Assembly: GCF_041261205.1 (NCBI RefSeq)
Contig: NZ_JBGCCH010000004.1
Location: forward strand, 186,001-250,000
Source: Catenulispora sp. MAP5-51
GTDB taxonomy: Bacteria; Actinomycetota; Actinomycetes; Streptomycetales; Catenulisporaceae
Reading direction: 5' to 3'
Length of the DNA stretch: 64,000 nucleotides
The notes beneath the pieces are model-generated. The model ran no database searches. It was not told the origin of the DNA and saw only the letters and a program-made list of their open reading frames with translations. Positions 23,829 to 37,686 of the stretch are shown piece after piece; within the stretch, counting starts at the first letter, position 1, and each line of letters starts with the position of its first letter. Both the position numbers and the translations under genes were made by a program.

Positions 23829-25361
23829 TCAGCGCAGCGGCTCGCCGAGGAAGGCCTCTTCCCACTTCGTCGGCGCGAACTCGCAATAGCGCGTGGTCCG
23901 CTTTCGGGAACGCCACAGCACCATCGGATCGGGCAGGTCGGCCAACGCGGCGGTGTCCTTGTCGGGCAGCGCCAGCACATGCCGCGCCATCGCCGCCTCC
24001 TCGCGCGGCAACCGCTGCAGGCCCACCAGATCCGCATCGCGGAGATAGCCGGCGGTGCGCGGATCGAAGTAGGGGAGCAGGGTCACGATCGAAGTCCAGG
24101 GCCCGCGGGGCACCTCCGCGTAGGGCGGCCGCGCACCGCAGTCCCGCAGCACGAGCAGCGGCGTGGCCATGCTCGGCGCGGGCCAGCCGGGGTGGCCGAC
24201 GGGACGGCCGACCGGTTGGACGATCAGGCGCGCCGCGTCCAGGCCGGAGTGCAGCAGGACTGAGTCCCACTCGCCCTGGCGTGCGGTTTCGATGATCACC
24301 CGGGCGCCTACCGCGGCACAGCGCAGAGCCAGTATCTGGGCGAGGTGCAGACTGCCGATGATCGCGGTACTCAGGGTCGTGCGGTGGAACAAGCCGAGCG
24401 TCACCGGGCGATGGGCCGGGTCCATGCCGATCAGCACGCCTCCGGGGGCTGCCCGTGTGCTGCTGTCGGTGCTGTGCGTGCTGCCTTTGCTGCCTGAACT
24501 GCCCGCGCTGCCTTTGCTGCCTGTACTGCCTCTACTGCCTGCGCTGTTTGTATCTCTATGCGTATCGGGGCAGGCGCGGGTCTCGGCCAGGTCGTTGCCG
24601 GAACCGGGCCGGCAATCACCGTCTGTATGCGTCGTGTAGTCAGTGTCGGCGAGGGTGATCGTGCGATAGCCGGCGAGCGCGAGCTTCGCCGACGCGGCCC
24701 GCGTGGCCTTGTCGAGCGTCCGGTGCGCTCCCGTGATGCCGCCGCCGCGCGCCAGGATCGGGCCGGCGGCGCGGGCGGCCAGGGTCTGGCGGCGGCTGCC
24801 GGGCAGTTCCAGGCGGAACGCCAGCCAGGTCAGGCGGACGGCCGGAACCGGCTCGGTGCCGAGGCGGCGGGCGACGTCCTGGTTGAGGCTCTGGTACGAG
24901 GCGCCGGCCTGGGAGCGTTCCGGCAGCCCGGCGCCGGTCGGCTGGACGTGCTGGACCAGCCGCACGTCTGCCAGCCCGAGCAGCGGATCCTCGCGCAGGC
25001 CGGCCAGGATCCGCGGCGGGATCGGCGCCGGAGGGTCGGCCGAGGGCAGGACGGCGTCCACCGGCTCGATCTCCAGGACGGCGCTGACATGATCGGGAAT
25101 CGGCGGCCTGGACCGCTTCAAGCTGTTCGAGTTCAAGCTCTTCGAGTTCTTGTTCCAGTTCTCATTCCAGCCTTTATGTGACTTTTGATCATCCAGCTCT
25201 ACGATGTCCGCGCCGCCGAGTCTCAACGCCACCGACGGCGTGTCGGCTGCCGCCGTTTCCAGCTGTTTGCGGCGGGTTCGCAGGCGCCAGGCCGCGGCCA
25301 CACCACTCGCGGCGGTGACTTGGCCCGCCAGCACCAGACCCATGCCAGCGAAGGTCCGCAT
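23829..25361 (-). CDS. eccE: type VII secretion protein EccE
   Basis: A 510-aa accessory component of the ESX core complex. The N-terminus has one hydrophobic segment (FAGMGLVLAGQVTAASGVAAAWRL) rather than the usual two. The EccE fold includes LTWLAFRLELPG, LALAGYRTITL, PVTLGLFHRTT and the conserved late part VIIETARQGEW to PTKWEEAF. Two low-complexity inserts are unusual: an Asn/Lys/Ser-rich run near residue 65-80 and a Gly/Ser/Lys/Thr-rich run at about residues 265-300, encoded by short DNA repeats. Its start is only 20 bp from the divergent eccB start. Confidence 0.8.
   Translation of the reverse strand: MRTFAGMGLVLAGQVTAASGVAAAWRLRTRRKQLETAAADTPSVALRLGGADIVELDDQKSHKGWNENWNKNSKSLNSNSLKRSRPPIPDHVSAVLEIEPVDAVLPSADPPAPIPPRILAGLREDPLLGLADVRLVQHVQPTGAGLPERSQAGASYQSLNQDVARRLGTEPVPAVRLTWLAFRLELPGSRRQTLAARAAGPILARGGGITGAHRTLDKATRAASAKLALAGYRTITLADTDYTTHTDGDCRPGSGNDLAETRACPDTHRDTNSAGSRGSTGSKGSAGSSGSKGSTHSTDSSTRAAPGGVLIGMDPAHRPVTLGLFHRTTLSTAIIGSLHLAQILALRCAAVGARVIIETARQGEWDSVLLHSGLDAARLIVQPVGRPVGHPGWPAPSMATPLLVLRDCGARPPYAEVPRGPWTSIVTLLPYFDPRTAGYLRDADLVGLQRLPREEAAMARHVLALPDKDTAALADLPDPMVLWRSRKRTTRYCEFAPTKWEEAFLGEPLR
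24459..24551. repeat. CTGCCT-type short tandem repeats inside eccE
   Basis: Repeated units of CTGCCTTTG, CTGCCTGTA, CTGCCTCTA and similar 9-mers on the + strand. On the coding strand they encode the Gly/Ser/Lys/Ala-rich insert of EccE. The unit length is a multiple of three, so copy-number change would keep the frame. Confidence 0.75.
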
Positions 25362-25381: not shown

Positions 25382-26884
25382 ATGGCGACGCGAAAGGAGC
25401 AGCTGACCGCGGCGGAATTCTCGCGGCGCCGGGTCATCGGAGCACTGCTGCGGCCGGGTGCGGACGGCGTCGGCGAAGGGGCGCCGCGTCCGTTCCGGGC
25501 GACGTTCGTGGCCGCGATCGTGGTCGTGGTCGCCCTCGGGACGGCCGGCGTGATCGGCTACCTCCATCCGCGATCCAAGGACGCGTGGCAGAAGGACCTG
25601 ATCGCCGACGGCTCGGGCACGCAGTACGTGATGCTCGACGGACGTCTGCACCCGGTCCTGAACTCGACGTCGGCGCAGCTGATGCTCGGCCCGACCCCGA
25701 AGCTGGCGCAGCCGAAGCCCGCGCAGCTGGCACCGTTTCTGCAGCATGTCGGTCCGGCCGTGGGCCTGGCGCGGGTCCCGGGCTCGCTGCCCGCCGCCGG
25801 CGACCTGGACCTGAAGGACTGGTCGGCCTGTGTGACCCCGACCGGCAAGACAGCGGTCGAGATCGGCTTCACGGTCGGCGGCCCCGCCGACCCGGGCGTG
25901 TTGTCGGGCCCTGACGCCCTCCTGGTCCAGGACGAATCCGGCCAGCAGTGGGTGGTCGAGGACGGTCTGAAGTACCGAGTCGGCGACCGGGCCTCGGTCG
26001 CGGCGGCCTTCGGCACCGGCGCGGTGAGGCCGCGCCACGTCCCGGAGGCATGGCTGGGCGGCCTGTCGGCGGGCGACGTCCTGGGCGTGCCGACCATCTC
26101 CGGCCACTACGGCGGCCCGGACCCGCGCCCGGCCCCCGACGGCTTCAACCGCATCGGCATGTTCGGCCGCACCCTCGGCCCCGACGGTGCGGTCGTGGAG
26201 TACTACCTCGTGACCGGTGACGGCATCGCGGCCGTGACACCGACGATGTACGACCTCTACCGGCGCGATCCCCGTCTGGGCGAGTTCAGGTTCACCGAGA
26301 CCACCCTGCCGCCCGGCACGGTGACCCCGGACATGCTGGTGACGACGGCGGCCTCGCAGACGCTGTCGTGGCCGGCCCTCCCACCGCACTTCTCAGCGGC
26401 TTCGCAGAGCGCTGAGGGCGGCGCGGCTGTCCTGTGCGCGACCTTCTCCGGCGTCTTCGACCAGCAGGGACGCGCGCACGTGGAGGTGGCGGTGCGTTCC
26501 TCGCTGCCACAGTCCCTGGCGGCGGTCGGCACGGTCGTGGTGGTGCACGCCGGGCACGGGACGATCGTGCGCGAGTCCGGCAGCGACCCCGCGACGGCCC
26601 CCGACTACCTGGTGACCGACACCGGTCTGCGCTATCAGCTGGTAGGCGCGGCGGCGATGCGGTTGGGGTACGACGGGATCGCTTCGTGCGAGGTGCCGGC
26701 GCCGTGGCTGCGGTTGGTGCCGCTGGGGCCGGCGTTGGATCCGGCGAAGGCGGGTCAGCCTGCTGATGGCAGTGCCGGCGACTATGGTGGCCCTTCCGGT
26801 ACTGCCGGTTCCACCAATAGCGCTGGTTTCTCCGGTGCTGCTGGTTCCTCCGATACTGCGGGTTCCGGCAGCCTCGGCTTGTGA
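25382..26884 (+). CDS. eccB: type VII secretion protein EccB
   Basis: A 500-aa ESX core subunit. It has a cytoplasmic N-terminus (TRKEQLTAAEFSRRRVIGALL, the family start motif), one TM helix at about residues 42-60, and a large extracytoplasmic domain with YVMLDGRLHPVLNSTSAQL, VLSGPDALLVQDESGQQWVV and two cysteine-containing repeats (SACVTP, VLCATFSG). GGGGA lies directly before ATG 25382. The last 45 residues are a Gly/Ser/Ala repeat tail not typical of the family. Divergent from eccE and convergent with eccC. Confidence 0.93.
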   Translation: MATRKEQLTAAEFSRRRVIGALLRPGADGVGEGAPRPFRATFVAAIVVVVALGTAGVIGYLHPRSKDAWQKDLIADGSGTQYVMLDGRLHPVLNSTSAQLMLGPTPKLAQPKPAQLAPFLQHVGPAVGLARVPGSLPAAGDLDLKDWSACVTPTGKTAVEIGFTVGGPADPGVLSGPDALLVQDESGQQWVVEDGLKYRVGDRASVAAAFGTGAVRPRHVPEAWLGGLSAGDVLGVPTISGHYGGPDPRPAPDGFNRIGMFGRTLGPDGAVVEYYLVTGDGIAAVTPTMYDLYRRDPRLGEFRFTETTLPPGTVTPDMLVTTAASQTLSWPALPPHFSAASQSAEGGAAVLCATFSGVFDQQGRAHVEVAVRSSLPQSLAAVGTVVVVHAGHGTIVRESGSDPATAPDYLVTDTGLRYQLVGAAAMRLGYDGIASCEVPAPWLRLVPLGPALDPAKAGQPADGSAGDYGGPSGTAGSTNSAGFSGAAGSSDTAGSGSLGL

Positions 26885-26910: not shown

Positions 26911-29900
26911 CTACCCGTCGGTTGTTGAACCCTGGTACACCGCGTCCCACTGCGGCTCCGGTACCAAAGCCGTCTGCACCAGCACCGTCCCGCCCCGCCG
27001 CCGCACCAACTGCCCCCGCCCCACCGGCTGTCGACTCGGCCGCGCCCCGCCGACCAGCGGTCCCTCTTCCCGGTCGCCGGAGAGCAGCAACCCGGCGGTA
27101 TTCAGATCCCGGAGCTTCTGCAACACCGGGTCGAACATCGCCCGCCCGGCCCCGCCACTGTTCCGCGCGATCACCACGTGCAGCCCCACATCCCGCGCGT
27201 ACGGCAGCAGCTCCACCAGCGGTCCCAGCGGATTCGTGGTCGGCGACGCCACCAAGTCGTAGTCGTCGACGAATACGTACACGTCCTTCCCGGTCCGCCA
27301 ACTCCGCGTCCGCAACTGCTCCGCGGTCACGTCCGGTCCCGGCAACCGGTCCCGCAACGCTTCGGCCAGCTGCGACATCATCGACAGCGCCGCCGGCCCG
27401 GCGACCGCGTACCCGGCGCTGAACTCCTCCGGCACCACGCCCATCAGGCTCCTGCGGTAGTCGATCACCATGAACCGGGCTTCGAGCCGTCCGGCCGTGA
27501 CCTCCTCGACCAGGCCCGTCGCCACCATCCGCAGGAAGTTCGACTTGCCGGCCTCGCCTTCTCCGAACACCACGAAATGCGGCTCGGCCTCGAAGTCCAG
27601 CGCCACCGGCAGCAATCGGGCCTCATCGATCCCGATCACCACGCCTGCGTTGGTCCGGCCTCCCGTGTCTGCTCGTCCGTGCGCGACCACCTCGTCATAG
27701 GCAACCTGCGACGGCAGCATCCGCACCGGCGGCGCCACCGGCCCTCGCCACGCTTTCGCGATCGCCGCGGCCAATTCCTCCGGTGGTACGGCCGTCACCG
27801 CGCCGAGCGTGTGCAGCTTCTGCCGTGTCACGCCTCGGCCCGGCACTCCCTGCGGCACCTCCGCCGCCGCCCGCCGATCCATCTCCGACTCCATCGGATC
27901 ACCGAGCCGTAGCTCCAGCCGTGTCCCGACGGCGTCCTTCAACGGGGCCCGCACATCGGCCCACCGCCCGGTCGATGCCAACAGATGCACGCCGAACGCC
28001 AGCCCGCGCCGTGCGATGTCCACGACGTCCTGCTCCAGCGCCTCGAACTCGGCCCGGAACGCCGACCACCCGTCGATGACCAAGAACACCTGCCCTTGGT
28101 CCGCCTCGGCCTGCGTCCCGCCCGCGGCTTCGCGCCGGTCGAGCACCCCGACCGCCTCCGCGACGATCCGTCGCACCAGGTCGGGATTCGCCCGGCCGGC
28201 GACCGCCGAGACATGCGGCACCTCGGCGAGCGGCGCGAGCGCCCCGCCGCCGACGTCCACCACCAGGAAGCGCGCCTGCGCCGGGGTGTGCGTCACCGCG
28301 AGTGCGAACACCAGCGTCCGCAGCGTCGTCGACTTCCCGGACCGGGGCCCGCCGGCCACCAGCACGTGACCGCCGGCCCCGGACAGGTCCAGCACCTGCG
28401 GATCCTGACGCTGCAGCGCCGGCCGGTCGACGATGCCCACCGGCACCCGCAGCTGACCCGTCCCGTACCAGCGCGTCGCCGACAGTCCGCGCTCGGTGGT
28501 GACCTCGATCCCGGGCAGCAACGCCTCGAGCGTCGGTGGCTCGGCCAGCGGCGGCAGCCAGACCCGGTGCGCCGCCGGGCCGAAGCCGGTCAGCCGGTCC
28601 ACGATCACGTCCAGCACCGTCGCGGACGTCTTCTGGTACCCCATGGCCGCGTCCAGCGCGGTGACCGAGGCCGGGTCGCTCGGATCCGGCTCGGCCGACC
28701 CGGCCCGCAGCGCCACGACCGGCGCCTGGTGCAGCGCGGTGAACCAGACCGGCTTCCGGTGGAGCGCGCTGCGCGCCGCCGGTGCCGCGGTCTCCTTGGC
28801 CTTTCCATACGGCCCGGACACATACGCGGCCTTGAACCGGACCATCGACTCGTTGTCGAACTTCAGGTATCCGGACCCCGGCACGCTCGGCAGGTTGTGG
28901 GCGTCGGAGACACCGAGCACGGCCCGTGACTCCGCGGCCGAGAACGTCTTCAATCCCAGCCGGTAGGACAAGAACGTGTCCAGCCCACGCAGCCGTCCTT
29001 CCTCCAAGCGCTGCGAGGCCAACAAGAGATGCACACCGAGGGATCGCCCGATCCGGCCGATCTGCAGGAACATCTCGATGAACTCCGGCCGTGCGGTGAG
29101 CAGCTCGGAGAACTCGTCGACGACCACCAGCAACGACGGCAGCGGCACCAGATCGGCGGCGCGGACCCGGTCGTAGTCGTGCACGTTCTTCACGTTCCCG
29201 GCACGCTTCAGCAACTCCTGGCGTCTGTTCAGCTCGCCGGTCAGCGCGTCGCGCATCCGGTCCACCAGCGTCAGGTCGTCCGCGAGGTTGGTGATCACCG
29301 CGGCCACATGCGGCAGGGTCGCCAGCCCGGCGAACGTCGCACCGCCCTTGAAGTCGGCCAGGATGAAGTTCACCTGCTCGCTGGAATGCGTCAGGGCCAG
29401 AGCCGACACCAGACTGCGCAGCAGCTCGGATTTCCCCGAACCGGTGGCGCCGACACACAAGCCGTGCGGGCCCATACCGCCGAGCGCGGCCTCCTTCAGG
29501 TCCAGCACGACAGGCTGACCGTCCTCGCCGACGCCGATCGGCGCGCGCAACCGGTCGTGCGGCGAGGCCGAGCCACGCTGCCACAAGCTCGGCGCATAGA
29601 TCTCGGCGGCATCCTCGATCCCGAGCAGGTCGGTGAACTCCAGCGCCGACAACAGCGGCTCGTCCCCGCCTCCCGCCGACAGCCGCAACGGAGCCAACTG
29701 GCGGGCCAGAGCCTCGGCCTGCCCCAGGGTCAGCGTGTCGACCCGGATCGGGAAGGCACGCTCGTCGGAGCCGGCCCGGCCGTCCGGCAGTTCCACCGCC
29801 GCGGTGCCGTCGAGGGTGATGTGCAGCGCCATCTGGTTCCGCTTCGGGCGCGCGGCACCCGCCCCGCCGATCTCGACGATCGTCACTCCGAGCAGACCGC

Positions 29901-30948
29901 TGTCGGAGATCAGTTGAGTGGACGACGCGGCTGATCCCGTCGACGAGGACAAAGCGGAGGCAGAGACATACGAGTCCGACAACGGCGCCAAGGCGGTGTC
30001 GAACAGGACGATCACGTGCGGCCGGTCGAGCAGCGAGACGATCCCCGTGAACCGCGGCCGTTCGGCCAGCAGCTGCTCCAGGCCCGCCTCGGCGTCCGTC
30101 CGGTCGTCGTAGATCATGCGCTGCGGACCGGCGGCATCCTGCGCGCTCGGGTGCTGGACGTGCGGCAGCCACTTGAGCCAGTCCCAGCGCTGGACCCGGT
30201 CGCTGTCCGCGATCACGCAGATCTTGAGGTCGTCGGGGGAGTGGAACGTCACCAGCTGCGCCAGCAGCGCGCACACCGCCGACGGCCCCGGTCCGCCGCT
30301 CACGACCAGGCGCGCGATCGAGCGCAGCGGGATCGAGACCGGCTGGTCCGGCACCGTGCCGTGGACGGCGAGCAGCCGGCGTAAGGCGTCCGCGCACATC
30401 GGCTCCAGCTCCTGCATCGGAGCCGTCTCCGGCGGCACGAGTTCCGTCGCCAGGCGCGCTGCGCCGCGCCCGATCCGCACGGTCAGGAAGTCGGGATCGG
30501 ACTGCCGCCGCTCCCACAGGCGCTCGCGAAGGGCGACCAGGCTCCACAACCGGTCCGGATCCGGATGGGCGTAGCTCGCCGCCGTCTTCTGGGCACGCGT
30601 CGCCGCCGTCACCTCCGAGCGGATGTTCGCGAGATGCCGCAGATAGTCGCGCCGGGCGTCGACGAGCCGGCTCGTGCCCCCGGCACGCTGCCGGACCGCC
30701 GTGACCGCCCCGAACACCAGGCTGGAGGCGAAGGTCACGCCGCCCACGATCATCATCAGGGCATTGGCACCCGGCATGAAGAAGAACACCACGGATCCCA
30801 GCCCGGCCACCATCGGCAGCAGGTTCAGGGCCCAGTGCCCCTCCCCGCCCCCGCGCGGCACCTCCGGCGGCGGCTGGAGGACCACGGTGCCGCTGGGCAT
30901 TTCCGGCGACGGGCGACGCGGTCCGCGGGTGACAGAGGTCGTACTCAC
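26911..30948 (-). CDS. eccC: type VII secretion FtsK/SpoIIIE ATPase EccC (single chain)
   Basis: The 1345-aa motor of ESX secretion, fused EccCa+EccCb. Two TM helices lie at about residues 40-80, then three ATPase domains: GATGSGKS near residue 500 with LLVVVDEFSELL, GGPRSGKST near 868 with VFLVIDGWSAF, and a degenerate GEGEAGKSN near 1130 with YVFVDDYDLVA. The first domain is usually the only active one; the others bind substrate signals. Start is GTG 30948. The gene is convergent with eccB and divergent from eccD (43 bp), unlike the co-directional order usual for ESX operons. Confidence 0.96.
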   Translation of the reverse strand: MSTTSVTRGPRRPSPEMPSGTVVLQPPPEVPRGGGEGHWALNLLPMVAGLGSVVFFFMPGANALMMIVGGVTFASSLVFGAVTAVRQRAGGTSRLVDARRDYLRHLANIRSEVTAATRAQKTAASYAHPDPDRLWSLVALRERLWERRQSDPDFLTVRIGRGAARLATELVPPETAPMQELEPMCADALRRLLAVHGTVPDQPVSIPLRSIARLVVSGGPGPSAVCALLAQLVTFHSPDDLKICVIADSDRVQRWDWLKWLPHVQHPSAQDAAGPQRMIYDDRTDAEAGLEQLLAERPRFTGIVSLLDRPHVIVLFDTALAPLSDSYVSASALSSSTGSAASSTQLISDSGLLGVTIVEIGGAGAARPKRNQMALHITLDGTAAVELPDGRAGSDERAFPIRVDTLTLGQAEALARQLAPLRLSAGGGDEPLLSALEFTDLLGIEDAAEIYAPSLWQRGSASPHDRLRAPIGVGEDGQPVVLDLKEAALGGMGPHGLCVGATGSGKSELLRSLVSALALTHSSEQVNFILADFKGGATFAGLATLPHVAAVITNLADDLTLVDRMRDALTGELNRRQELLKRAGNVKNVHDYDRVRAADLVPLPSLLVVVDEFSELLTARPEFIEMFLQIGRIGRSLGVHLLLASQRLEEGRLRGLDTFLSYRLGLKTFSAAESRAVLGVSDAHNLPSVPGSGYLKFDNESMVRFKAAYVSGPYGKAKETAAPAARSALHRKPVWFTALHQAPVVALRAGSAEPDPSDPASVTALDAAMGYQKTSATVLDVIVDRLTGFGPAAHRVWLPPLAEPPTLEALLPGIEVTTERGLSATRWYGTGQLRVPVGIVDRPALQRQDPQVLDLSGAGGHVLVAGGPRSGKSTTLRTLVFALAVTHTPAQARFLVVDVGGGALAPLAEVPHVSAVAGRANPDLVRRIVAEAVGVLDRREAAGGTQAEADQGQVFLVIDGWSAFRAEFEALEQDVVDIARRGLAFGVHLLASTGRWADVRAPLKDAVGTRLELRLGDPMESEMDRRAAAEVPQGVPGRGVTRQKLHTLGAVTAVPPEELAAAIAKAWRGPVAPPVRMLPSQVAYDEVVAHGRADTGGRTNAGVVIGIDEARLLPVALDFEAEPHFVVFGEGEAGKSNFLRMVATGLVEEVTAGRLEARFMVIDYRRSLMGVVPEEFSAGYAVAGPAALSMMSQLAEALRDRLPGPDVTAEQLRTRSWRTGKDVYVFVDDYDLVASPTTNPLGPLVELLPYARDVGLHVVIARNSGGAGRAMFDPVLQKLRDLNTAGLLLSGDREEGPLVGGARPSRQPVGRGQLVRRRGGTVLVQTALVPEPQWDAVYQGSTTDG

Positions 30949-30991: not shown

Positions 30992-32881
30992 ATGACTGCA
31001 GGTTCCGGGGTCGCCGGGCGGCCCGTCGCGGTCGGCGGCCACTGCCGGGTCACCGTCATCGCGCCCACCCGCCGCGTCGATGTGGCGCTTCCGGAGGACG
31101 TGCCACTGGCCGAACTCCTCCCGGAACTCCTGCGGCTGGTCGGCGACCCGCTCCCGACCTCCGCCGCCCTCGCTGCCGCACTGACCGGCTACGTCCTCAC
31201 CGGCGCTGACGGCGAGCCGCTGGACACCGCGGCGTCGCTGACCGAGCAGGGCGTGCTCCACGGCGGCGTACTCCGCCTGCGCCCGGCCGACGACCTCCCC
31301 GAGGTCGCGGTCCACGACGACATCGCGGACGTGGTCGCCCAAGCGGTCATCGCCGGCGGTTCGCAGTGGACGACGGCCGCTTTGCGCGCCACGGCCTTGG
31401 CCGTGGTCGTCGTCGCCTCGGCGCTCGGCGCGGGCGTGCTCTGGTTCTCCAACACCGGGACGTTCCACGGCTGGAAGGGCATGGTCGCGGGCGCGATCAC
31501 GGTGCTGCTGTTCGGCGTCGCGATCCGGCGCGCGCGGTACGACCGGTCTGCTGTCGGGCGCGGAAGCTACTACGGGTACGGAGACGGTGCGGGCCCGGGC
31601 GCTCCGTCCGGCCCTCCGGATCGTGACCGTCCCGAGCGCAGACACGATCGAGTGAATCAGCCCCCGGCGCGAGGCGAAGGACCGGACGGCTACTACGGCG
31701 AGCCCACCGCTGACTACGGCTACTCGTCCGGTGATCCGGACGACGGCTCCGCCAACACGACGATGACCTTCGACCTCGCGTCCTTCGCCTCCGAAGATCC
31801 CGACTCCCGGCCCACCGCGACCCACTTTCTCGGCAGCGCCACGGCGACCCGGGCTGCGAAGAGCGTCCGCGACGGCGGCCTCGGCAGCCTCGCGGCCTGG
31901 CCCACCGTCGCCGAGGCGATGGCCTGGGCGACCGGCGCGCACCATCAGCGTGACTACACGGCGGCAGCCGTACTCGCGGCGTCGTCGCTCCCTTATGCCT
32001 TCATCGCCGGCACCGGTCTGCTGCCCGCCGACGCCGCAGCCGGACACGGCCTCGGCCGCGCCCACTTCCTGGCCGGCGCCGCCACCGTCCTGGTCATGGC
32101 CCTGGCCGCGATCATCGGCCTCGGCCGCCGGATCGCGGTGCCGGTGGCAGGCGCGACCGTGGGGCTGGTCGCCACCTGTGCTGGTATCGGCCTGCTGGTG
32201 ACCAAGGCCAGCCCGGCCTCCGGCATCGCCGTCGTCGCCGCGGTCTGCGCGCTGGTCATCGAACTGCTGCCGTTCGCCGCGATGGCCGCCGCCCGCTTCG
32301 TCATCGAACCCCCGACCAGCGGCGTGGAACCCGGCGACTTCGAAGGCTCCCCGGTCAACAACTACGTGGTCGGCCTGCGCGTGGCCCGCACCCTGGAGGT
32401 CCTGACCGGGCTGACGGCGGGCGTCGGCACGCTGCTGGTGCTCTCGGTCGCCCTCCTCGTCACCCCGATCGACGCCATGCAGACCGCATCGGACGCCTCC
32501 CACACGGTGTGGGGCCAGGCGCTCGCGCTCCTCGTCTCGGGCGTGACCCTGTGCCGCGCGCGCCTGTTCCGCGAACGCGCCCAGGTCCTGGCCCTCGCCC
32601 TCAGCGGTCTGGCCGGCCTGGTGATCGCCTTCATCGCCATGGCCGCCAACGCGGTCCCCGACCTGCGCGCGATGTGGCTGGCCCCGTTCCTGGTCGTGAT
32701 CGCCCTGCTGGCCCTCGGCCTGGCCTCGATCCGCCCCCGCCGCGGCACCTCCGAGCCGATCATGCCGCCCCGCTGGGCCCGCGCCGTCGACCTGCTCGAG
32801 GGCGTGATCTTCCTCGCCGTGCTCCCGGTGCTGATGGCCGTGCTTGGCGTATACGGCCAGGTGCGCAATCTGAAGGGCTGA
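30992..32881 (+). CDS. eccD: type VII secretion integral membrane protein EccD
   Basis: The 629-aa channel subunit of the ESX complex. Residues about 15-100 form the ubiquitin-like (YukD) domain (CRVTVIAPTRRVDVALPED). Eleven hydrophobic helices follow. Odd is a hydrophilic insert of about 115 residues (about 183-300) between helices 2 and 3, rich in Tyr, Gly, Pro and Asp. ATG 30992 has only a distant GGAG. The end is convergent with the HNH gene, 29 bp apart. Confidence 0.92.
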   Translation: MTAGSGVAGRPVAVGGHCRVTVIAPTRRVDVALPEDVPLAELLPELLRLVGDPLPTSAALAAALTGYVLTGADGEPLDTAASLTEQGVLHGGVLRLRPADDLPEVAVHDDIADVVAQAVIAGGSQWTTAALRATALAVVVVASALGAGVLWFSNTGTFHGWKGMVAGAITVLLFGVAIRRARYDRSAVGRGSYYGYGDGAGPGAPSGPPDRDRPERRHDRVNQPPARGEGPDGYYGEPTADYGYSSGDPDDGSANTTMTFDLASFASEDPDSRPTATHFLGSATATRAAKSVRDGGLGSLAAWPTVAEAMAWATGAHHQRDYTAAAVLAASSLPYAFIAGTGLLPADAAAGHGLGRAHFLAGAATVLVMALAAIIGLGRRIAVPVAGATVGLVATCAGIGLLVTKASPASGIAVVAAVCALVIELLPFAAMAAARFVIEPPTSGVEPGDFEGSPVNNYVVGLRVARTLEVLTGLTAGVGTLLVLSVALLVTPIDAMQTASDASHTVWGQALALLVSGVTLCRARLFRERAQVLALALSGLAGLVIAFIAMAANAVPDLRAMWLAPFLVVIALLALGLASIRPRRGTSEPIMPPRWARAVDLLEGVIFLAVLPVLMAVLGVYGQVRNLKG

Positions 32882-32910: not shown

Positions 32911-34263
32911 TCACGCTTCACCACCCGCGACCCCGGCACCCGCCACGGCCTCCGCGGCATCAGGCCGCCACGGACTCGGCCCGGGATACCAGGCCGGCGT
33001 GTCCGTGTACCAGGGAGCCCGCGGCTTCTGGAACCGGCGCTGCTCGTTGTACGTCCGAACCTCCGACTCCTGCCAGCCGTGCTGTCGCTGCCAGAGCTCG
33101 TCATGCAACTCCCGATGATGCCGACGGCACAGCAGGCGCATCTGGTCCAGGTCGGTATGACCGCCCGCAGCCCACGGGATGTCATGGTGCGCATCGCACT
33201 CGCGCGGCGGCCGCCCGCACCCCGGCGCGGTACAGCCCCCATCGCGCACCGCCATGGCCTCGTACTGGGCCCGCGTGGCAAGCCGCCGTTTGCGCCCCTG
33301 CCACAACACCTCGCCCTCGCCGTCCACCAGCACCGCCCGCAACGCGGCCTCGCACCGCAACATGTGCGCCTCCGCCGCGGGAACGGCGCGCCCCCGCCCC
33401 GTCCGCGCCCCCGGCGCCCCCGGCAGCGCCTGCGCCGTGTCGGCCCGCATGACGATGGTCATGGTCGTCGGGCCGTTGTGGCGCTGCGGCAGGTCACCGG
33501 ACCGCAGCCGGTCCTCGGCTAGCCGCACCAGGGCATCGGCCCGGACCCTCGCGAGGTCCTCGGCACCGTCGGCCACCTCGTCAGCGCCACCGGCTCGCGG
33601 ATCGCCGAGCGCGTCCAAGGCCGTCAGCAACGCATCACCACCCGTGGTGGACAGAAACCCACCAGGCACATAGCCGTCGAGCACAGGGGTCATATGGAAC
33701 CCCCGCTTCTCCTCGGCCACCCTGGCCCGATTGAGCGCGGTGGCCGGCGCGACCCGATGAGCGGCATCCTCGGCATGCTCCCGCAGGCTCTCGGCCCCCT
33801 CAGCCATCGCCCGAGCGATCAGCGCCCTGCGAACCCGGTCGACGACCTCGTCCGGCTGGTGCACGAGCGCAGCAAGAGTCTCGGCGATGATCCTGGCCTG
33901 CGGAGCAGAGATGTCACCGGTCCGCAGCGCATCCTCGGTCGCCGGATCCTTCCTCAGCGCCTTGACCGTGGCAATCAACCGCCCGGCATCACCCTTAGTC
34001 CGCCCCAGATCAACGATCAGGGCCTTCCGGGCGGCATCAGTGGCGCGCCACGACAGTTCCTCCCGCGTAGTCTCCGGCGTCTGCACCGGATCACCACGGT
34101 CATGCCACGTCCGGACACACCGAACAAGCACCCCCTCAGCCGCACGCGAGACCTGTTCGGCAGCCCGCGCGACAGCCAGGCTGCCGCTCGTGTCATAAGC
34201 GAGCGGATCCAGCCCCGCGAGGCAGGTCGTGGCATCGCTGAGCTGGCGCAGCGGGTTGACCAT
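32911..34263 (-). CDS. DUF222 / HNH endonuclease protein (13E12-repeat family)
   Basis: 450 aa from ATG 34263 (GAAGGGA upstream). The long N-terminal helical DUF222 region contains LRTGDISAPQARIIAETLAAL. The C-terminal HNH motif reads CTAPGCGRPPRECDAHHDIPWAAGGHTDLDQMRLLCRRHH split over the zinc-knuckle cysteines and the HH...N/D...H core. These proteins occur in many copies in actinobacteria and are thought to be nucleases of mobile or selfish character. It separates eccD from the mycosin cassette on the same strand as the cassette. Confidence 0.9.
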   Translation of the reverse strand: MVNPLRQLSDATTCLAGLDPLAYDTSGSLAVARAAEQVSRAAEGVLVRCVRTWHDRGDPVQTPETTREELSWRATDAARKALIVDLGRTKGDAGRLIATVKALRKDPATEDALRTGDISAPQARIIAETLAALVHQPDEVVDRVRRALIARAMAEGAESLREHAEDAAHRVAPATALNRARVAEEKRGFHMTPVLDGYVPGGFLSTTGGDALLTALDALGDPRAGGADEVADGAEDLARVRADALVRLAEDRLRSGDLPQRHNGPTTMTIVMRADTAQALPGAPGARTGRGRAVPAAEAHMLRCEAALRAVLVDGEGEVLWQGRKRRLATRAQYEAMAVRDGGCTAPGCGRPPRECDAHHDIPWAAGGHTDLDQMRLLCRRHHRELHDELWQRQHGWQESEVRTYNEQRRFQKPRAPWYTDTPAWYPGPSPWRPDAAEAVAGAGVAGGEA

Positions 34264-34438
34264 CGTCGTGTCCCTTCGACGTGTTCCCCGCACGCCTGTT
34301 CTGACAGGACCAACGATAGCTGGCGTAAATGGTCTATGTAGGGCAAACGACTCTCTCGAAACAAGTCATATAAGAGACCTCAAATCAGACCCACGACACG
34401 CCTTACCAAGCCACCCGCCCCGCCCCCCCCGCGACGCA

Positions 34439-35545
34439 CTACGCCCGCCGCACCCACCGCCGCACCCCAACAAGAACGAGCCCACAACCACCCACCGCAC
34501 CCCCGCCAACAAGCCACCACCACCCCCACCCACCGCCGGCCCGCCGCACGGGCGCCCCAACCACACCTCCAACAACCGGCGGCGCAGCGAGCCGCACAGC
34601 CGCCAAAACATCCAAAATCCCCGCCCCATACCGATCATCCCGAGCAGCCCCCCGCATAGCAGCAGGCTTATCAGCAGTCCCCTCCAAAGCCGCAACAACC
34701 TCCGCAGCACTCCACCCCGGGTGCGCACTCCGCACCAAAGCAGCCGCAGCAGAAACATAGGCGGTAGCCTCCGAAGTCCCATCGGAATACCCCACCCGCC
34801 CCCGATTATCATCCCGCATAATATGCACCCCCGGCGCCACCAAAGCCACATCAGCCCCCGTATTCGACTGACTCCACACCTCCCCCGAACTATCAATCGC
34901 CCCCACACCAACCACCCCAGGCCACGCCGCCGGATAGTACTGCTGCGAGCTCCCATCGTTTCCGACGGCCGCCACGACCACGACATCATGGGCAAGGGCG
35001 TCCTGAACCGCACGATGGATGTCAGGGTCGTCCCGGTCGAACCCCAAAGCTAAGTTAATTACTGATGCTTTGCGTGAAACGGCGAACTCGATTGCTGGGG
35101 CGACGCCAAAAATCAAACCACTGCTAGAACCATCTGTGGCTCGCACTGGAAGAATACCCGACTCGGGCGATAGTCCGAGTGTTCTCGCTCCGGCGCCTCC
35201 GATAATTGATGCTTCGCCAGTTCCGTGTCCGTCGCCATCCTTATCGAGACGGCCATCTCCAATACTGGCGCCGGTTGCGTCTGAGAAGTCTGCGCCGGTA
35301 AGAAGATTGATTGTGGTGTCGCTATTTGACTGAACTCCGGTATCGACGACTGCAACGACCGTTCGCGCTCCACGTGTAATATTCCAGACTTTGCTGGCTT
35401 GAAGATAGCGTAGGGCCCATTGAGTATCTGTTGACGTGCTAGCAAGGTACGTTGGCACCACGGTAAGCCCAATTACTAGAGGTGCTTGGGCCAGTCTGGA
35501 CCGATGACTCCATCGGCGGGTGCTGCGACTGTGTTGGGTAGCCAT
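34439..35545 (-). CDS. mycP: type VII secretion-associated serine protease, mycosin
   Basis: A 368-aa membrane-anchored subtilase. It has an N-terminal signal sequence with a basic region (STRRWSHRSR), then the catalytic triad Asp68 (VVAVVDTG), His107 (DGDGHGTG) and Ser258 (SDGTSEATA), and the oxyanion Asn196 (AAVGND). A C-terminal Gly/Trp-rich TM helix (about 336-360) is followed by RRWVRRA. Mycosins stabilise the ESX complex and process substrates. The ATG at 35545 lies 70 nt inside the preceding WXG gene in another frame; a later GTG near 35460 would remove the overlap but also the signal peptide. The 3' half is strongly T/G-rich on the coding strand. Confidence 0.88.
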   Translation of the reverse strand: MATQHSRSTRRWSHRSRLAQAPLVIGLTVVPTYLASTSTDTQWALRYLQASKVWNITRGARTVVAVVDTGVQSNSDTTINLLTGADFSDATGASIGDGRLDKDGDGHGTGEASIIGGAGARTLGLSPESGILPVRATDGSSSGLIFGVAPAIEFAVSRKASVINLALGFDRDDPDIHRAVQDALAHDVVVVAAVGNDGSSQQYYPAAWPGVVGVGAIDSSGEVWSQSNTGADVALVAPGVHIMRDDNRGRVGYSDGTSEATAYVSAAAALVRSAHPGWSAAEVVAALEGTADKPAAMRGAARDDRYGAGILDVLAAVRLAAPPVVGGVVGAPVRRAGGGWGWWWLVGGGAVGGCGLVLVGVRRWVRRA

Positions 35546-36837
35546 ACGCTTTTTCGCTCTTTGAGATATTCCGGACGAGGATTACGTTCTTCGCGCGTAC
35601 GGTGTATGGAACCTACGCTGCTAAATGGAGGAACCATAGGCGCGGTTTCGTCGCTGGTCCCATCGTGCTGCGACTGATAGGTCTGCTGGGGCATAGGTCG
35701 AGGTGGAAGTGCATCGTCGTCGGCTTTTTGGGGCGAGAAGTGGGTTTCGGTCGTTGCTGAAGATGAACTTGCGTTAGCGACGTCAGTTGTTTGGTGGTTG
35801 GACTTTGTGCGCGTTGTGATGGGTGAACGGTTTTGATGGTGGGTCTCCTCTGGGGTCCGCACTTTTTTACCTTCTGCGTGAATTTCCTGCACGCTACTTA
35901 CGAATGCGTCATCGCCGGTGGGGCGGGTTAACGCTGTTCCTGTGATGGCGGCAGGGGCATCATGGACCGCTCTTGAGGCCTCACTATTCTCGCCCAGGGT
36001 TTTTGCGGGGAACTTATGTGAAGTGGCAGTGCTGATCAAGTTTAAGGTACTCTCGCCATGTTGAATTTTGCTGCCCGATGAAGGCTCAAGGGGGATCGAG
36101 TCGGAAGCTTGGTGGTCACCGTGAAGGGCTACCAGCGGCGCGCGCCTCTTGAAGGAGGTGTTGAGACTATTTGCAGTGTCTCTTGGGGGTAGGCGGTGAC
36201 GCTCGTAGGGTTGCGGAAGCCCGGCCGCAGGTGGCTCTGCTGTCAGTGAATCGCTCTTGCCGGAATCTCCCATCGAATTGAGCATCTTTGATTCCTCGGC
36301 GGGGGTAAAACCTTTATCAAATTCGAATCCGACGTTTGAAAGCTGCCCACGGGTTTCTACATATTGAGCAGCGATGCCGTTGACCACCTGCACGGCTTGC
36401 TCGTGCGCCGCCTGATACTTGGCGTCTTGCCGCGCTGCTTCAAGTGCCTCGAATGGCGTAGCGGGACGCTGGACCACAGCAGTGACGCCGGGTTCTGGCA
36501 GGTCAGGTACGTTCATCATCTGATGTTGCTGCTCAGCGACGACCTGCGCGCACCGGCCGACAGCAGTGGCAGCGGCCAGGGCGCTTCCGTGGAAATCTCG
36601 AGCCTCAGCCGCGGCACGCCCCAGCGTTGCCGCCGCCTGTTCCGCGGCCTGTCCCCGCCACCAGTTCGGCAAGTCCGCCTGGGCGTGCGAAAGCAAGTCC
36701 GCGACCTCTCCGACCCGGTCGGCCAGGGCGCGAAACGACGCAGGCATAGCCTGCATAGTCCCGACCTGCGGCGAAGCCGCCAGGCTCCGCAGCTCGTCGA
36801 GGGTGAAGTGGCCGTACTCGAACTGGGATTCGCTCAC
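35476..36837 (-). CDS. WXG-motif protein with long disordered tail, probable ESX substrate
   Basis: 453 aa. The first 110 residues form a helical hairpin with the WXG-type turn WRG at residues 60-62 (LPNWWRGQAAEQAAATLGRAAAEARDF is its context), as in WXG100/PPE-like ESX substrates. A second helical piece runs to about residue 190. The remaining 260 residues are polar (Ser, Thr, His, Pro, Glu, Gln) with no predicted fold. Start is GTG 36837, overlapping the TGA of the upstream gene (GTGA). G+C is visibly lower over the tail than in neighbours. Not recognised as a named family; secretion is inferred from fold and context. Confidence 0.75.
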   Translation of the reverse strand: MSESQFEYGHFTLDELRSLAASPQVGTMQAMPASFRALADRVGEVADLLSHAQADLPNWWRGQAAEQAAATLGRAAAEARDFHGSALAAATAVGRCAQVVAEQQHQMMNVPDLPEPGVTAVVQRPATPFEALEAARQDAKYQAAHEQAVQVVNGIAAQYVETRGQLSNVGFEFDKGFTPAEESKMLNSMGDSGKSDSLTAEPPAAGLPQPYERHRLPPRDTANSLNTSFKRRAPLVALHGDHQASDSIPLEPSSGSKIQHGESTLNLISTATSHKFPAKTLGENSEASRAVHDAPAAITGTALTRPTGDDAFVSSVQEIHAEGKKVRTPEETHHQNRSPITTRTKSNHQTTDVANASSSSATTETHFSPQKADDDALPPRPMPQQTYQSQHDGTSDETAPMVPPFSSVGSIHRTREERNPRPEYLKERKSVWLPNTVAAPADGVIGPDWPKHL

Positions 36838-37274
36838 GGCATCGCTCCGCCCAAGCCGCCCAAGCAGTTCACGTCACCCTCCGCTGCCCGCATCGCGGCG
36901 GCGGCAGCAGTCGCGACCGCGTCGTCGGCGGCGGCGTATGTCGCGCGGGTGCGCTCCGCGTAGGTTGTCAATGCGGTGACCGTTTCGTGGATGCGGTGGT
37001 ACCAGGCTTGGAGGTGGTGGACCAGGTCTGTGTGGGTGTTGCCTAGGGGGTCGGCTTCGTTCAGCAGTCCATATACATATGTGGCGGCGTCGTCTTTCTC
37101 TGTGCGCCACGCCGCTGGGCCTGTGTGGAGGGTGGGGTCGATGGTGGGCCAGTGGTGGGCGTGGGGGGCTGACAGGGTTGATTCCAGGTCGGCCAGGGCT
37201 CGGCGGAGGGTTGCCAGGTGGTCCAGGCAGGTGTGGAAGGTGGGGGTGGTTGTTTTTGTGGTTGTGGTGCTCAT
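36834..37274 (-). CDS. small helical protein of the ESX cassette
   Basis: A 146-aa protein starting at ATG 37274 with GGGGAGG upstream. After a Thr/Lys-rich N-terminus it is helical throughout (HTCLDHLATLRRALADLEST, then HLQAWYHRIHETVTALTTYAERTR), ending Ala-rich. It contains Trp but no clear WXG turn. The 4-nt stop/start overlap with the WXG-motif gene suggests the two products are made in equal amounts and may pair, like PE/PPE or EsxA/B partners; this is inference. The coding strand is A/C-rich, opposite in skew to the mycosin 3' half. Confidence 0.75.
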   Translation of the reverse strand: MSTTTTKTTTPTFHTCLDHLATLRRALADLESTLSAPHAHHWPTIDPTLHTGPAAWRTEKDDAATYVYGLLNEADPLGNTHTDLVHHLQAWYHRIHETVTALTTYAERTRATYAAADDAVATAAAAAMRAAEGDVNCLGGLGGAMP

Positions 37275-37416
37275 GGGGTGTGGGGCCTCCCCGGGTGGGG
37301 CTTTGGGCTTGGGGGTGTGGTCGGGGTGGTAGCGTTGGCACGCGGCCGCGAGTTGTGTGGTTCCCCGTGGAGACGACCGGGGGCGCTCAGCGACCACAAT
37401 CTTACGAGGAGTCACT

Positions 37417-37686
37417 GTGTCCCTGGACGCTGCTACGAAGAAGAAGATCGTTGAGGAGTACGGGACCGGGGCGAGCGACACGGGCTCCCCGGAGGTGCAG
37501 ATCGCGCTGCTCACGTACCGGATCAACGAGCTCACCGAGCACCTGAAGTTCCACAAGCACGACCACCACAGCCGGCGGGGGCTGCTGCTGCTGGTCGGCC
37601 AGCGGCGGCGGCTGCAGGGGTACCTGCAGAAGACCGACATCGTGCGGTACCGCGCGCTGATCGAGAAGCTGGGCCTGCGGCGGTAG
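37417..37686 (+). CDS. rpsO: 30S ribosomal protein S15
   Basis: 89 aa, the standard length. Family motifs are [45 protein letters not shown] and [20 protein letters not shown] read in sequence; S15 binds 16S rRNA in the central domain. Start GTG 37417 has GAGGAG 5 nt upstream. In actinobacteria rpsO lies before pnp, as here, and an ESX locus next to rpsO is also seen in Streptomyces (recalled). Confidence 0.98.

Follow-up and report, generated by a model that had tools for sequence, protein, structure and literature searches.

In the genome of the soil actinomycete Catenulispora sp. MAP5-51 (G000, 10.9 Mb), a stretch of 64,000 nucleotides on contig C4 (positions 186001-250000; hereafter the window) carries an ESX locus of the type VII secretion system (T7SS), adjoined by a cassette of three genes. 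The three open reading frames (ORFs) are located at 34439-37274, all on the minus strand, and encode proteins of 146 residues (P0001, the small partner) and 453 residues (P0002, the large partner) and a mycosin-type subtilase of 368 residues (P0003); their positions are those stated by a first-pass annotation of this DNA. The cassette is positioned between rpsO and an HNH-domain gene beside eccD, and the ESX locus with eccE, eccB, eccC and eccD adjoins it. The genes for the small and the large partner overlap by 4 nucleotides (36834-36837), those for the large partner and the mycosin by 70 nucleotides (35476-35545), and both overlaps, already noted by the annotation, have identical lengths in all six Catenulispora copies compared (the window and L026-L030; start codons as aligned). 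The annotation had suspected a new secreted pair that is cleaved by the mycosin. Fold, export signal and recurrence in other genera all favour a co-secreted pair, and we infer with considerable confidence that the two partners are exported together by a T7SS. The cassette as a whole probably encodes a PE/PPE-like heterodimer with a dedicated mycosin.

The two partner proteins

The large partner contains the sequence W60-R-G62, the WRG turn recognised by the annotation, which in the structural model is flanked by helices 23-59 and 63-108. The model, calculated from a four-sequence alignment, comprises helices 13-20, 23-59, 63-108 and 128-169, so that WRG is placed between the second and the third; over residues 11-170, its block values of the predicted local distance difference test (pLDDT) are 62-88. 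The first six Foldseek matches all come from PE-PPE complexes and, to judge from their length, are PPE subunits; the best expectation value (E) is 0.009, and no match is at or below E 0.001. In a second structural comparison, a chain of the PPE15 complex came first (Z 11.4, 169 residues, 3.7 Å). A fold related to the WXG/PE/PPE hairpin, as anticipated by the annotation, is thereby favoured, and residues 6-171 are suggestive of a PPE-like helical domain. The domain is followed by a fast-evolving polar tail rich in Ser, Thr, Ala and Pro, which covers about 268 residues (172-440; 260 in the annotation) and has pLDDT values below 50 almost throughout.

We do not assign the large partner to the PPE proteins: it has no Pro-Pro-Glu near its N-terminus and no PPE match in the Pfam search, where the PPE cut-off was not reached. 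According to one account, Pro-Pro-Glu should not be the sole criterion for PPE proteins (PMC7028111). WxG is invariant in 20/20 aligned large partners and occurs in 54 of another 55 that have a scoring N-terminal domain. All 14 aligned large partners from outside the genus match Pfam WXG100 (best 6e-8) and five of them match Pfam PPE (best 8e-7) at E <= 0.1; one relative, L056:4649-5947, exceeds the Pfam PPE cut-off (28.2 vs 26 bits). A profile of the outside-genus proteins matches Staphylococcus aureus EsxA structures (E 2.4e-10), and profile comparison between large partners of Catenulispora and of other genera gives E 5.3e-8 (probability 94.8%). A search for EspG (PF14011) matched none of 41 genomes, and no control genome matched either.

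The small helical partner carries the YxxxD/E signal expected for a member of a secreted pair, with YAAAD at residues 113-117, the end of its last helix. A weak model of P0001 contains helices 13-35, 63-73 and 80-138, of which the first and the last are the main ones. Y/FxxxD/E is found in all 17 aligned small partners (Tyr in 15; none of the 17 rows was taken for the three L056 ORFs), and at one alignment column in 51 of 53 further small partners (44 with Tyr). Comparing the profiles of small partners from Catenulispora and from other genera gives a probability of 79.6% and E 1.5e-5. Single small partners match DUF6317 (8e-5) and DUF2563 (1.5e-4). The composite signal described for PE-PPE pairs combines WxG, between helices 2 and 3 of the PPE protein, with YxxxD/E of the PE protein (PMC7028111, PMC3935865). 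Because WxG and YxxxD/E are split in the same manner over two adjacent proteins of the cassette, these most likely represent a T7SS substrate heterodimer.

The large partner ends in a conserved C-terminal motif, RPxYL(K/V)E...W...P..I, which carries no family name. A regular expression of this motif retrieved 21 large-partner ORFs, of which L055 was left out as short; in the 20 aligned ones, R421, P422, Y424, E427, W432 and P440 are invariant, besides W60, G62 and Y159. The motif is not an artefact of gene overlap, because in most of the census loci described below the mycosin ORF starts only after the large-partner stop, with the motif still present. Selection was measured against three relatives as the ratio of non-synonymous to synonymous substitution rates (dN/dS), or as pN/pS where dS was saturated. 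In the large partner, the values are 0.06-0.09 for residues 1-170, 0.47-0.67 for the tail and 0.13-0.16 for residues 399-430; they are 0.13-0.17 for the protease domain of the mycosin and 0.2-0.5 for the small partner. Within the large gene, the G+C content drops from 0.66 in the N-terminal region to 0.56 in the tail.

A conserved C-terminal peptide, separated from a helical bundle by a long, fast-evolving Ser/Thr/Ala/Pro-rich linker, could also belong to a surface or cell-wall component, in which the exported bundle is tethered to the envelope by the disordered tail and its conserved end and the mycosin acts as release protease. No Pfam domain is found in the tail, and we judge this possibility to be improbable. 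The combination of a conserved N-terminal export domain and a hypervariable remainder also fits, superficially, a polymorphic-type toxin with a variable effector tail, for which the small protein would provide immunity or partner function; LXG toxins of Bacillota use small helical partners (PMC11217815). However, the tail is disordered in addition to having no Pfam domain, its far end is conserved across the order, which is the opposite of a swapped toxin domain, and the small protein carries an export signal. A toxin is therefore very unlikely.

Recurrence of the cassette and role of the mycosin

Searches with P0001 and P0002 each retrieved the same 7 of 60 genomes, the own one included and all of one genus; ten genomes of Catenulispora were among the 60. 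The named relatives from the large-protein search were two Catenulispora and one Catenulisporales metagenome-assembled genome. These single-protein searches hid the breadth of the family, and it was the genes beside the closest mycosins from other genera (45-47% identity) that gave the link: in sister genera, these mycosins stand in a cassette with the three genes in identical order. In genus g4 of family f2, by inference Streptomyces, the cassette follows eccB-esxA-esxB-mycosin 1 (L051, L052, L059, L061). Across the order, 81 of the 119 sampled genomes have a match to a profile of the C-terminal motif (E <= 0.01), and these cover 5/5 genera. In a sample of the class, 13/246 genomes match the motif and 10/246 the small-partner profile at E <= 1e-5, all of them in this order (2/104 genera).

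A linkage census was taken of the 60 best C-terminal motif matches after the 20 training rows. Just downstream, 57 of these loci carry a mycosin homologue in the same orientation; a small partner (E < 1e-5) lies upstream in 53. These counts, given without a random-gene baseline, come from loci that are mutually related and not independent events, and they retain several odd cases: L066, L068, L069 and L070 with short large-partner ORFs, L102 (overlapping L096, with an 85-residue ORF picked) and L078 (continuing past the motif). Small partner, large partner and mycosin thus travel together in other genera of the order, in line with the unit of pair and protease that the annotation proposed. Its claim that the pair is new holds in part: on sequence grounds the pair is a divergent branch, but of a family that is common in this order, other members of which score against WXG100 and in part against PPE, and a Streptomyces mycosin with an ESX-1-like neighbour is already in print (PMC4239341). 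One genome of another family, G015, contains ten C-terminal motif matches and fifteen mycosin matches, an apparent amplification of the cassette (L055, L056, L066-L070, L075, L089).

P0003 is a subtilase (Peptidase_S8, 1.1e-38) with D68, H107, N196 and S258 in place. Its match to the NCBIfam mycosin model TIGR03921 (E 1.1e-60, 205.6 bits) is below the cut-off of 278.75, and it is therefore called mycosin-type. Hydrophobic segments are located near residues 18-36 and, at the C-terminus, near 341-363 (hydropathy peaks starting at 18 and 341-345); another peak, which starts at 307-315, falls at the protease domain's end. A mycosin tree was calculated with 26 of 45 rows, leaving out M1_L034, which was wrongly cut and had a very long branch, and 18 others. 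Cassette mycosins together with a solitary Catenulispora mycosin separate from the eccB/eccC-linked mycosins (support 100/99), and the branch of the window mycosin groups with the sister-genus cassette mycosins and the solitary one (99/99). Holding the window mycosin together with the eccB/eccC-linked ones is rejected by the approximately unbiased test (p-AU 0.003); Catenulispora and sister-genus cassette mycosins may or may not form a single clade (p-AU 0.448).

These data bear on a reading in which the pair is secreted, but P0003 serves this ESX machine only as its structural mycosin, performs no processing and adjoins the pair through operon inheritance. In Mycobacterium marinum, MycP1 and MycP5 are reported to be needed for secretion independently of their protease activity, and EspB, processed by MycP1, was the only known mycosin substrate in 2016 (PMC5082899). 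P0003 is also without a second match in the window, and four loci of other genera and families have their mycosin between eccC and eccB. On the other hand, Asp, His and Ser are retained in the alignment of 56/57 cassette mycosins, and in sister genera that keep an eccC/eccB-linked mycosin the cassette is found on a contig other than that of the eccD-rpsO locus (G010, G011) or 0.9 Mb away from it (G012). This separation is not readily accounted for by a structural role alone, and we give this reading somewhat less than an even chance. That the mycosin is functionally dedicated to the pair appears reasonably likely; that it cleaves the large partner, as the annotation proposed, is speculative and can be put only slightly short of evens.

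Several observations weigh against a PE/PPE-like pair with its own mycosin. P0001 is below every Pfam cut-off (best DUF7939, E 0.063), and it has no NCBIfam match. Its model is weak (pLDDT 62.6, predicted template-modelling score 0.37) and a fold search with it gave nothing useful. The small-partner profile from other genera has flagellin as its best PDB match (E 0.0048), followed by a WXG100 protein (0.012). P0002 is likewise below the family cut-offs (WXG100_2 E 0.17, WXG100 E 0.48). For the large partner, BAR domains appear beside the PPE chains at Z 10-11, a range the tool calls common for long helices; with BAR domains so close behind and a weak Foldseek E, the fold match is suggestive and not proof. 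The pair lacks a neighbouring mycosin at three of the 60 census loci (L085, L087, L092), and the solitary mycosin of the cassette branch in the own genome (C3:119295-120149, L046; counterparts L047-L050) has no pair. The link between pair and mycosin is therefore strong but not strict.

This solitary mycosin, the closest one in the own genome as judged among the best 4 of 7 own-genome mycosin matches, was also considered as a second cassette (C3:119295) and rejected, since no pair lies beside it.

As both partners remain below curated cut-offs, the putative family assignment of the window's own pair is based on profiles and motifs. That no curated family names either partner could also mean that the three ORFs lie side by side without any relation to one another and do not form a T7SS substrate set. 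This is barely conceivable in view of the conserved gene order and overlaps, the split of WxG and YxxxD/E, and the 57/60 adjacency outside the training rows.

In the mechanism that we propose, the three genes would supply the adjoining ESX (T7SSa) machine with substrates and a protease. It is most likely that the 146- and 453-residue proteins pair in a four-helix bundle, as PE and PPE do; in this heterodimer, WxG of the large and YxxxD/E of the small partner would create one composite signal recognised by EccC, and the pair would be exported in the folded state, with the flexible tail of the large partner presumably presenting its short conserved motif at the end. The most likely role of the putatively membrane-anchored mycosin is to stabilise or gate the translocon, in the manner of other mycosins; more speculatively, it may also bind or cut the tail or the C-terminal motif after export.

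The ESX locus and its conservation in Catenulispora

EccB, EccC and EccD above curated cut-offs and a mycosin-type subtilase are present in one locus, which identifies it as ESX/T7SSa; the features are listed in Table 1.

Table 1. Positions of the cassette genes and adjoining features within the window
Feature	Position	Strand	Basis or remark
Small partner P0001, 146 residues; YAAAD (YxxxD) 113-117 in last helix	36834..37274	-	ORF, model, alignment
Large partner P0002, 453 residues; suggestive PPE-like helical domain about 6-171, WRG 60-62, disordered fast-evolving tail about 172-400, motif 421-440	35476..36837	-	
C-terminal segment of large partner, residues 405-453	35479..35625	-	last part within mycosin gene overlap
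Mycosin-type subtilase P0003, 368 residues; D68, H107, N196, S258	34439..35545	-	
HNH-domain protein, between cassette and eccD	32911..34293	-	conserved in Catenulispora; not counted as cassette member
EccD (YukD + EccD membrane domain)	30992..32881	+	above curated cut-offs
EccC, EccCa + EccCb in single ORF	26911..30948	-	above curated cut-offs
EccB	25382..26884	+	above curated cut-offs
EccE-like protein	23829..25361	-	22.9 bits vs Pfam cut-off 23.7, just below
rpsO, flanking marker adjoining cassette	37414..37686	+	

A canonical esxA-esxB pair was not found in the window: PF06013 has no match at E <= 0.001 in C4:186001-250000, and tblastn with EsxA and EsxB of genus g4 gave no match better than E 6. 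The eight best WXG100 loci of the genome include a pair at C3:604294-604871 (L001, L003), the nearest relatives of these two proteins within that set, which is located away from all four eccD matches of the own genome. The EccE-like protein looks like a fusion, as its halves match two separate ORFs in L032, L034, L036 and L038 (compare L032:15114-17251) and in four g4 loci (L052, L059, L061, L065). The HNH-domain protein is found beside eccD in the window and in eight Catenulispora stretches holding eccD (L026-L029, L031, L041, L043, L045), and it has no match in the fetched loci of other genera. The spacer between eccC and eccB, the site of a mycosin in other genera, is 27 bases long in the window; about 1.6-1.7 kb separate the two genes in L026:11632-13341 and L028:12265-13894, possibly a remnant.

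Five genomes (the window and L026-L029) share an uninterrupted stretch from rpsO to eccD with an unchanged gene order. The cassette is cut off by the end of the contig in G009 and G003. A real loss of the cassette in G001, G002 and G005 was considered and rejected as unproven, because their contigs stop about 100-165 bases upstream of the rpsO start, at the expected beginning of the cassette. That three draft assemblies (G001:C243, G002:C83, G005:C377) all break right beside rpsO at the cassette suggests a sequence that is hard to assemble.

Relation to known systems and implications

The closest parallels are the PE-PPE heterodimers of ESX systems in mycobacteria (PE25-PPE41, PE5-PPE4 and PE8-PPE15), which share with the cassette pair a helical domain of about 170 residues with WxG between helices 2 and 3, a small partner on a chain of its own that has YxxxD/E at the last helix, a long variable C-terminus and adjacent genes at an ESX locus. 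In contrast to them, the large partner of the cassette has no Pro-Pro-Glu and remains below the Pfam PPE and WXG100 cut-offs, and it combines a fixed C-terminal motif with a mycosin directly behind. The EspB-MycP1 system of mycobacterial ESX-1 likewise combines a mycosin with a large, long-tailed substrate of WXG/PPE type, and two of the 14 outside-genus relatives weakly match the EspB_PPE model (best E 0.011). EspB is described as having WXG and signal on one chain with no apparent partner (PMC11217815), whereas in the cassette they are split over two proteins. The LXG proteins with Lap partners of the T7SSb in Bacillota resemble the pair in their helical N-terminal domain and small helical partner (PMC11217815), but the cassette belongs to an actinobacterial T7SSa, includes a mycosin and has no toxin domain that was found. 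The g4 EsxA-EsxB proteins encoded beside eccB are also a WXG pair of an ESX locus; they are, however, different proteins from the cassette pair, and the window locus shows no such pair.

In Streptomyces pratensis, Sfla_1620/Sfla_1621 comprise a mycosin beside a hypothetical protein in an operon with bldB, both listed as highly divergent core genes, and DELTA-BLAST likened the neighbour to ESX-1 secretion-associated Ala/Pro-rich proteins (PMC4239341). These genes possibly represent the same cassette; the excerpted account of them names no small partner, no split of WxG and YxxxD/E and no C-terminal motif (PMC4239341). Two secreted serine proteases are also described by the bldB locus beside rpsO (PMC1934918). 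Among the literature matches listed, there is no publication on this cassette as such, and the main papers on the T7SS of Streptomyces scabies and Streptomyces coelicolor might describe it.

PE and PPE proteins are still described as unique to mycobacteria (PMC4758615, PMC12209268), and in one evolutionary model eccE, pe and ppe were added only on later plasmid-borne clusters, with Catenulispora acidiphila listed as having four ESX-4 clusters (PMC4791881). The cassette does not fit well with such a late appearance of PE, PPE and EccE.

At a further and rather doubtful step, the C-terminal peptide could serve as a docking or processing tag for the neighbouring mycosin and the cassette as a portable export-and-processing module, so that PE/PPE-type substrates would be neither a mycobacterial invention nor primarily an outer-membrane device. 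The order to which Catenulispora belongs has no mycomembrane. If the interpretation is correct, a PPE-like protein with a YxxxD/E partner at an ESX locus in such bacteria would point to an earlier origin of this substrate architecture and would separate it from transport across an outer membrane. Since the cassette encodes, directly before the mycosin, a candidate substrate whose end carries a conserved motif, it would also make the question of mycosin substrates testable in harmless laboratory streptomycetes.

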